Below are positions 8,796-60,060 of a stretch of DNA of 64,000 nt, one piece after another. Source of the stretch: Methanosarcina sp. 2.H.T.1A.6 (lineage in GTDB: Archaea; Halobacteriota; Methanosarcinia; Methanosarcinales; Methanosarcinaceae); contig NZ_JJOY01000023.1 in assembly GCF_000979455.1 (NCBI RefSeq), positions 1 to 64,000 of the forward strand. Reading direction: 5' to 3'. Each line of letters opens with the position of its first letter. The stretch's first letter is position 1. The translations under genes were made by a program, and so were the position numbers. The notes under the pieces are model-generated. The model was given only the letters and a program-made list of their open reading frames with translations, was not told the DNA's origin and ran no database searches.

Positions 8796-8842
8796 GACCC
8801 CTTCCTCGGCGGCTCTCAAGCCGACAGGGAGGAGTAGTTCAC
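8796..8842 (+). mobile_element. Solo IS200/IS605-like end hairpin overlapping a gene 3' end
   Basis: The stem TCGGC (8806-8810) / GCCGA (8820-8824), flanked by CCTTCC and GGGAGG, is followed by TAGTTCAC at 8835-8842. The same layout (hairpin, then TAGTTCAC or TAGTTGAC) recurs at 37649 and 57930. The stop codon of the methyltransferase on the opposite strand (8816-8818) lies inside the loop. Confidence 0.4.
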
Positions 8843-9880
8843 ATCCTTCTGGAAAATAGTTATTATCCGTGTGAGACTCCTGTGTACTCTCTGTACATAA
8901 ATCTCAAGAACCTTAAGTCCTGCCTTCTCTCCGTATTCTAATGATGCCTTGTCCGAGACAACAATCGCGATGCCTCCGGGTTTTAAGACGCGGTGGATTT
9001 CTTCAAGGGCGCCGGAATATAGTTCTTCTAAGGATCCGGCAAGGATTGCTGCCGACCTTCCGTAGGGCGGGTCGGTGACGACGGTATCGATTGTAGAGTC
9101 CTTTAGCGGGATCCTGCAGGCATCTCCCTCCATCAGGATGTAATCCAGTTCATAGGCTTCCAGGTTCATGTGAGCCCCGAGGACAAGTTTTTCCTGGGCA
9201 TCTATCCCTATGACCCTTGCACCCACAAGCCCGGCTTCTACAAGTATGCCTGCAGTGCCGCAGAAAGGGTCAAGGAGGAGCTCTCCCGGCTTTATCCCGG
9301 AAAGGTTTGTAAGGGCGCGGGCAACTCTTGGCATAAGTACGCCAGGGTGAAAAAAAGGCTTGTTCTGGGGGGTCCTGGCTTCATATGCGCTCCTGTCAAC
9401 CGAGGACAATAGAGTCCCAAGTACAGCTTTTTCACTCAGGATGAGCCGGAATTCTACATCAGGGCTCTTCAGGTTTGCCCTGAACCCTTTCCTGTAGATG
9501 AATCCTCCAATTTTCTGCTCAAGGGACTCGCACGGAAAGTCAACGTGGTGTTTGATCCTTTTTGCCCTGACAACAAAACTTTCTCCTTCCTTGATATATT
9601 CTCCAGGTTCAAAGGCTTCCGCAAGCTTCATGACCGCATCAGGATTGTTTTCGGTAATCCCTACAACTTTCAGTATATGGTGGGTCATTGCCAGTCTTTC
9701 AGTTACAGGACCTTTAAGGGCTCTTTCAACATCCTCTTCTCTGCCTGCGATATCCACTACAAGACACTGGTCGACTCTTGCATGGGGCCGGAAATCAAGC
9801 CTCTCAATTTTGAGGCAGGCAAGGATTTCGGCAGCTGGCAGTTCTTCGTGCTCTCCAGAGAGTTCAAAAGCGTATAACAT
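8816..9880 (-). CDS. THUMP-domain tRNA guanine-N2 methyltransferase (TrmG10 type)
   Basis: Matches the archaeal TrmG10 family, which methylates the exocyclic amine of G10 in tRNA. The N-terminal half is the ferredoxin-like/THUMP region. The C-terminal half is a Rossmann methyltransferase with the SAM motif LLLDPFCGTAGILVEAG, the acidic loop IGIDAQEKLVLGAHMNLEA and the catalytic VVTDPPYGRSA (N6/N2-type DPPY). 354 residues is usual. A TATA-like CTATATTA about 25 bp upstream of the ATG suggests leaderless transcription. Its last codons (DVNYSSLSA) lie inside the IS-end-like hairpin, so its natural C-terminus may have been replaced. Confidence 0.87.
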   Translation of the reverse strand: MLYAFELSGEHEELPAAEILACLKIERLDFRPHARVDQCLVVDIAGREEDVERALKGPVTERLAMTHHILKVVGITENNPDAVMKLAEAFEPGEYIKEGESFVVRAKRIKHHVDFPCESLEQKIGGFIYRKGFRANLKSPDVEFRLILSEKAVLGTLLSSVDRSAYEARTPQNKPFFHPGVLMPRVARALTNLSGIKPGELLLDPFCGTAGILVEAGLVGARVIGIDAQEKLVLGAHMNLEAYELDYILMEGDACRIPLKDSTIDTVVTDPPYGRSAAILAGSLEELYSGALEEIHRVLKPGGIAIVVSDKASLEYGEKAGLKVLEIYVQRVHRSLTRIITIFQKDVNYSSLSA

Positions 9881-59030: not shown

Positions 59031-59492
59031 TCATTTTTCCAGGATTTTTGCTATTTCATCCATATCGGGAAGTTCATGAACCAGATATCTTTTGAAGAAT
59101 ATCACTCTACGTTCCTCATCAATAATTATGTTCGCCCTGTCAGAGACTCCTTCTTTTTCTCTGAATATGCCATATTTTTGGGCAACCTCACCATGTGGCC
59201 AGAAATCCGAAAGAAGTCTGATGTGTTTAATCCCCAGTTCCATAGCCCAGGCTCTCTTTGATGGTATGGGATCCACGCTTATACCAAACGCCACGGTGTT
59301 TAGTCTGGTAAACAACTCATGGTTGTTCTCCAGGGATCTTATCTGTTCTGCACAGACGTTTGTCCAGGCAAGAGGATGGAACGATAAGAGCACCTTCCTA
59401 TCTCTTAATTCATAGAGATGCACTTCTTTCTCCTTATGGTCTCTTAACCTGAAATCCTGAATTTTATCTCCGATTTTTATCTCATTCATCAT
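59031..59492 (-). CDS. Peroxiredoxin-like (AhpC/TSA) protein
   Basis: About 153 residues, thioredoxin fold. The peroxidatic-cysteine loop is LSFHPLAWTNVCAEQIRSLE (P, T and C in the order PxxxTxxC). The later VAFGISVDPIPSKRAWAMEL and the block FWPHGEVAQKYGIFREKEGV are usual for 1-Cys or 2-Cys peroxiredoxins. There is only one further cysteine-free tail, so a 1-Cys mechanism is likely. ATG 59492 is chosen, with GGGGGA six bases before it; ATG 59504 lies inside that site. It stands alone. Confidence 0.87.
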   Translation of the reverse strand: MMNEIKIGDKIQDFRLRDHKEKEVHLYELRDRKVLLSFHPLAWTNVCAEQIRSLENNHELFTRLNTVAFGISVDPIPSKRAWAMELGIKHIRLLSDFWPHGEVAQKYGIFREKEGVSDRANIIIDEERRVIFFKRYLVHELPDMDEIAKILEK

Positions 59493-59587
59493 AAAATCCC
59501 CCATTTAATAAAATCATTTAGTTTAATAATATCTTTTTTTATTAATATCTTTTAGTTATAAAATTTTTATGTGTTTGCCGACATTGA

Positions 59588-59941
59588 TTAGTTATTCCGG
59601 AAATCATGAAAAAAGGAGCAAAAAGGGCTATTATTGTTTTCTCTCTTATGCTCAACATATTCGATCAGTTTCAAAACATCTGATCTGTTTGACCGCTCTT
59701 ACTTCGAAATGAGTATAAAAAGATCTTTTTTTCAACTTTATCAAAACCAGGCTGAATATTCAGACCGAGAACTTTTAGATCTGAGATATATTTTAAAATA
59801 CGGTGTAGACTTAATCTCTCTGTAAAAACAGTAGTCAATAAAATCAAAAATTAGTTACTTATTAACGTCAGATATTGGCGCATCTTTCAATGAATCCAGA
59901 CGCTTCTGAACACTCATATTTTCATAAATGCCTATTCCCAT
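59588..59941 (-). pseudogene. Decayed tyrosine-recombinase (integrase) fragment next to tRNA-Thr
   Basis: Read on the minus strand from ATG 59941 (AAGGAG just before it): MGIGIYENMSVQKRLDSLKD, APISDVNK, an in-frame TAA at 59855-59857, then LIFDFIDYCFYREIKS. After a frameshift it continues SLHRILKYISDLKVLGLNIQ and GFDKVEKK, then after another shift VLKLIEYVEHKRENNNSP and a stop at 59588. The order of blocks fits the N-terminal core-binding domain of archaeal integrases, as I remember them from Methanosarcina. The catalytic half is missing. It starts 46 bp behind the 3' end of tRNA-Thr. Confidence 0.65.
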
Positions 59942-59986
59942 CAAACAGACTCCTTTGGAAATAGGCTCCGAACAAAATTAGTACAA

Positions 59987-60060
59987 AGCCTCGTGCGTGA
60001 TTCGAACACGCGACCTAGTGATTACAAGTCACTCGCTCTACCGGGCTGAGCCAACGAGGC
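59987..60060 (-). tRNA. tRNA-Thr (UGU)
   Basis: Complete cloverleaf on the minus strand: acceptor GCCTCGT/ACGAGGC, D arm GCTC/GAGC, anticodon stem AGTGA/TCACT with loop CTTGTAA (anticodon TGT), T arm GCGTG TTCGAAT CACGC. The discriminator is T. CCA is not encoded and there is no intron. The integrase remnant directly behind it suggests that it served as an integration site. Confidence 0.96.

Follow-up and report, generated by a model that had tools for sequence, protein, structure and literature searches.

An integrase relic of chimeric make-up behind tRNA-Thr(TGT) in Methanosarcina sp. 2.H.T.1A.6

Archaeal tyrosine integrases are divided into type I, whose gene is split on integration, and type II, whose gene remains intact (PMC8371274). 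Here, we describe an integrase relic behind a tRNA-Thr gene of Methanosarcina sp. 2.H.T.1A.6, in a stretch of 64,000 nucleotides (contig NZ_JJOY01000023.1, positions 1 to 64,000), hereafter the window. The intact Methanosarcina relatives of this integrase behave as type II. Similar to pNOB8-like and lambda-like integrases, they keep a whole gene at the tRNA, match the profile PF00589 (E 3e-17 to 5e-18), and possess R/HxxR/Y by inspection. In a related genome, Methanosarcina sp. KYL-1, the complete gene lies between the tRNA and a far tRNA copy. Unlike type II integrases, the copy in the window is a pseudogene that lacks the catalytic residues, and the intact relatives carry HxxR in contrast to the YxxR of the pNOB8 type (PMC8371274).

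An N-terminal integrase fragment beside a tRNA gene also resembles the int(N) remnants of the SSV type (type I, suicidal). However, in the SSV type the integration itself splits the gene, whereas here the intact relatives at the same site are unsplit and the fragment is due to decay. An int(C) piece was absent from the far tRNA copy in KYL-1 and in another relative, G043 (labels with G denote genomes in our set).

The nearest named viral integrases belong to pleolipovirus-like elements of Archaeoglobales, ThalV2 and Geoglobus acetivorans pleomorphic virus 1 (37-38% identity over 81-88% of the protein). They are distant from the Methanosarcina family, whose members share about 55-83% identity, and the Methanosarcina elements gave no evidence of being such viruses. 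IMG/VR contained no free viral contig with this integrase, phage and plasmid records yielded distant relatives only (below 60% identity), and no description of the Methanosarcina element family was found in the open-access literature. The relic is of a known, common kind, of which it is a new example.

The relic behind tRNA-Thr(TGT)

A broken tyrosine-recombinase gene occupies approximately positions 59610-59941 of the window on the minus strand, behind tRNA-Thr(TGT). The relic of the integrase front end is about 330 bases long, and is followed by host sequence. The features of the locus are:

59987 to 60060, minus strand: complete tRNA-Thr gene (anticodon TGT; ARAGORN), the integration target, identical or nearly identical across the genus
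59942 to 59986, minus strand: element-derived leader of 45 bases that separates the tRNA from the integrase start and contains a ribosome-binding-like AAAGGAG; the G043 element at the same tRNA has a leader 96% identical to it
59824 to 59941, minus strand: apparently younger part of the fossil, integrase codons 1-39 with one nonsense change (CAA in G043 to TAA) and no indel, 97% (114/118) identical to G043 and 63-81% to other relatives
59610 to 59823, minus strand: apparently older part of the fossil, spanning the N-domain and reaching the start of the catalytic domain, interrupted by frameshifts and a stop and missing about 45 codons internally, 65% identical to G043, 78% to G009 and 73% to G006
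59505 to 59575, minus strand: host region upstream of a peroxiredoxin-like gene, marking the end of the scar, conserved at the corresponding place in ten relatives
59031 to 59504, minus strand: peroxiredoxin-like gene, the next host gene behind the scar, in an order shared with relatives

The integrase starts with ATG at 59941-59939, 45 bases from the 3′ end of the tRNA, and reading from 59941 gives MGIGIYENMSVQKRLDSLKDAPISDVNK, a stop, and then LIFDFIDYCFYRE. The sequence-only reading of this DNA had reported four integrase fragments, in order and in two frames, behind tRNA-Thr, and all four were found in place on the minus strand. MSVQKRLDSLKD (59917-59882) and LIFDFIDYCFYRE (59854-59816) share one frame; SLHRILKYISDLK (59811-59773) and GFDKVEKK (59748-59725) share a different one. 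Further along, KKDLFILISK, a stop and ERSNRSDVLKLIEYVEHKREN, together with REKTIIALF, match sequence on either side of the internal deletion. Aligned with intact genes, the relic comprises codons 1 to about 87, then lacks about 45 codons, and resumes with DVLKLIEYVEHKREN and REKTIIALF at the start of the catalytic domain. The final 70 bases or so ahead of the peroxiredoxin-like gene are conserved host sequence.

The same reading had described the remnant as N-terminal only, with the catalytic part gone. The catalytic R, HxxR and Y are indeed absent from the window copy; however, the relic runs past the internal deletion into the start of the catalytic domain, of which (PF00589) only the first residues are left. 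The window copy is a relic without catalytic residues and no working member of the family.

Chance frames, or a conserved small gene belonging to a different family, could be considered, as the fragments are short and G+C is low (30% in the scar stretch vs 44% in the window). Nonetheless, a tblastn search with an intact relative as query matched the scar with 66 bits (E 9e-16), while the best of 1000 dinucleotide-preserving shuffles reached 24 bits, which confirms the proposed tyrosine-recombinase identity. The locus also matches G011 with 82% DNA identity over 418 bases, tRNA included, and stops and frameshifts interrupt the frame. By the shuffles, the G011 match and the interruptions, this explanation is refuted.

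Related integrases, empty sites and the missing far end

The tRNA together with the 482 bases behind it was used as a DNA query against related genomes. The arrangement of tRNA and integrase was found in several Methanosarcina species. By our count, integrase sequence, whole or broken, lies directly behind this tRNA in eight of the 27 genomes showing the tRNA. In other species the site is empty or holds shorter remnants; G004, G008 and G016 have an empty site, where host genes follow the tRNA at 83-285 bases.

The sequence-only reading had pointed to related strains as a place for an intact element, and KYL-1 holds one. Its intact integrase of about 355 amino acids lies behind tRNA-Thr(TGT) inside a 7.5-kb element, and carries the R, HxxR and Y motifs by inspection (ARIGE, HLFRHSR, VYVHLSG). 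Further genes of the element encode a DUF927 protein, a ParB-DUF488 protein and a DUF488 protein. A second tRNA-Thr copy 7.5 kb away marks the end of the element, followed by the DUF and thiF-like host genes, which also lie behind the window's scar; the opposite side of the site carries aldolase-like, pgsA-like and archease genes. Since host genes are shared on both sides, the KYL-1 element is at the orthologous site.

Broken versions of the integrase were found in further relatives. G011 has the tRNA, then the integrase in two frames (116 and 239 amino acids, one frameshift) with the second half matching PF00589, and a 64-base tRNA-Thr copy 17.5 kb away. In the complete chromosome of G043, a 16-kb element with a broken integrase lies at the same tRNA, delimited by another tRNA-like copy and then the same host genes. 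Integrases of one family, intact or broken, behind the same tRNA-Thr, and another tRNA copy where the element ends, bear out the earlier view of the locus as the scar of a lost element.

The G043 element (L130:2660-18790) is a decaying, composite island; besides two transposase genes, of IS66 and ISAZ013 type, it contains another integrase fragment and gives an Rfam match to PYLIS. Separately, G001, G041 and G035 possess two or three tRNA-Thr(TGT) copies, almost complete and spaced by 2-12 kb (L033:5569-5642 and 8820-8893; L133; L134). No match to the scar-type integrase was found between these copies, which perhaps belong to other elements at the same tRNA.

tRNA-Thr(GGT) in G006 and G011 and tRNA-Ser(CGA) in G035 are likewise followed by full-length members of the family, and G009 has the duplicated tRNA part for tRNA-Thr(GGT). 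Methanosarcina sp. DH2 (L024:11791-11862) has a broken integrase behind tRNA-Thr(GGT) and, at a distance of 5.3 kb, still a tRNA copy of 50 bases. In Methanosarcina, tRNA-Thr genes serve frequently as integration sites.

A partial tRNA-Thr duplicate had been expected near the relic. This expectation failed: no second tRNA-Thr 3′ copy was detected in the window or in the rest of the strain's own genome, so the far side of the element is gone too. No element stands in the window now, only the stump. A short hit at C11:137070 was rejected as a tRNA-Thr 3′ duplicate, being another tRNA-like sequence that shares the T-arm. No integrase fossils were found behind the tRNA-Thr(GGT) of the strain's own genome. 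One apparently intact, distant integrase is encoded elsewhere in that genome (G000:C10:67087-68067, L049; frame of 398 amino acids, 34% identity).

Composition and probable history of the relic

The two parts of the relic differ in their nearest relatives. Over the 163 bases next to the tRNA, the window and G043 are 96% (157/163) identical, which exceeds the identity of the host flanks of the two genomes (intergenic 88%, aldolase-like gene 90%); exchange or acquisition of the proximal piece therefore probably postdates the separation of the two species. Beyond about 59823, identity to G043 falls to 65% (71/109; Fisher p 6.6e-12), the segments compared being short (163 and 109 aligned bases). 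The distal part is nearest to GGT-type integrases, those located behind tRNA-Thr(GGT) (G009 78%, G006 73%), including a DNA match of 79% to G006 at 59621-59684. No comparable drop was found in other pairs of family members. The AU test rejected a grouping of the window with G006 and G009 for the proximal part (p 0.0001) and, with moderate support, the grouping with G043 for the distal part (p 0.013). On these alignments, the relic is chimeric, its two parts coming from integrases that differ in age. Decay is likewise unequal, with a single nonsense change and no indel proximally, and frameshifts, a stop and a deletion distally; indels confined to the distal part fit two ages. The sequence-only interpretation is supported as largely right, although it missed the chimeric nature of the fossil.

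The simplest history would be a single element with a single integrase, degraded at its site by point mutations plus a deletion extending from the integrase beyond the far end, and the family, site and orientation agree with it. Such a decay leaves unexplained why identity to G043 drops from 96% to 65% inside a single pseudogene and why the nearest relative switches, and we regard it as unlikely.

We consider it probable that the locus is the scar of elements at the 3′ part of tRNA-Thr(TGT), the younger of which was lost by recombination between integrases next to an older fossil. In the history that we infer, an older element with a GGT-type integrase would have integrated at this tRNA and decayed to an integrase fossil. 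A younger, G043-like element would then have integrated at the same tRNA, landing between it and the earlier fossil. The two integrase genes would next have recombined in common sequence near ACTACTGTTTT, an event that would have deleted the younger element and its far tRNA copy, and fused the young front to the old rest. This history accounts for the chimera, the missing repeat and the unequal decay. With its start about 45 bases from the tRNA, the lambda-like integrase gene keeps its front end on the tRNA when the rest is lost. Both elements side by side at this tRNA were present in no genome found.

The main rival to the two-element history is an integrase that was already mosaic on arrival, or whose front was overwritten through gene conversion by an incoming element, with deletion and decay later or as a separate event. 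It predicts the same chimeric sequence, and related integrases are frequent in the genus. Nonetheless, it sits poorly with the absence of indels in the first 163 bases against several in the next stretch, and an intact mosaic of this type was not found. We hold it to be a tentative second choice, clearly less probable than successive integration and recombination between integrases.

If the latter history holds, even short stumps would be assignable to successive elements. The chimeric stump suggests that a tRNA site can lose an element without leaving the usual repeat, and surveys keyed on tRNA duplicates would therefore miss such events. Evenly balanced, in our judgement, is the wider proposal that elements stacked at one tRNA may be lost when their own integrase genes recombine, without integrase-mediated excision, so that the younger element goes with its far att copy and a chimeric stump would be the footprint.

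tRNA-Thr copies with an altered T-loop

In the far tRNA-Thr copy of KYL-1 and G043, the T-loop is replaced by about 34 bases able to fold as a hairpin (GCCGTAAGGCCAAAGCAACGCAGTTGCGCCTGAG in G043). The far copies in G011 and G009 have a normal T-loop. The insert was found in eight of 31 Methanosarcina genomes (KYL-1, G043 and six more) and was absent from the other genera searched within the order. tRNA-Thr copies with the insert are located at:

L095:17464-17574
L130:2554-2659
L131:298-402
L132:196-333
L028:5527-5617
L080:3616-3719
L153:2600-2661
L154:5803-5864

In the consensus structure, both partners change in one pair of the T-stem and in one pair of the insert hairpin. One possibility is that the insert is part of the att site of the element. 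It occurs once on a tRNA-Thr(GGT)-like body adjoining an integrase fragment. In G040, G034, G014 and G035 (L156, L157, L028, L153), the insert-bearing tRNA-like sequence has a decayed tRNA body and lies within a conserved stretch of several hundred bases, which may be a repeated or orthologous non-coding element.
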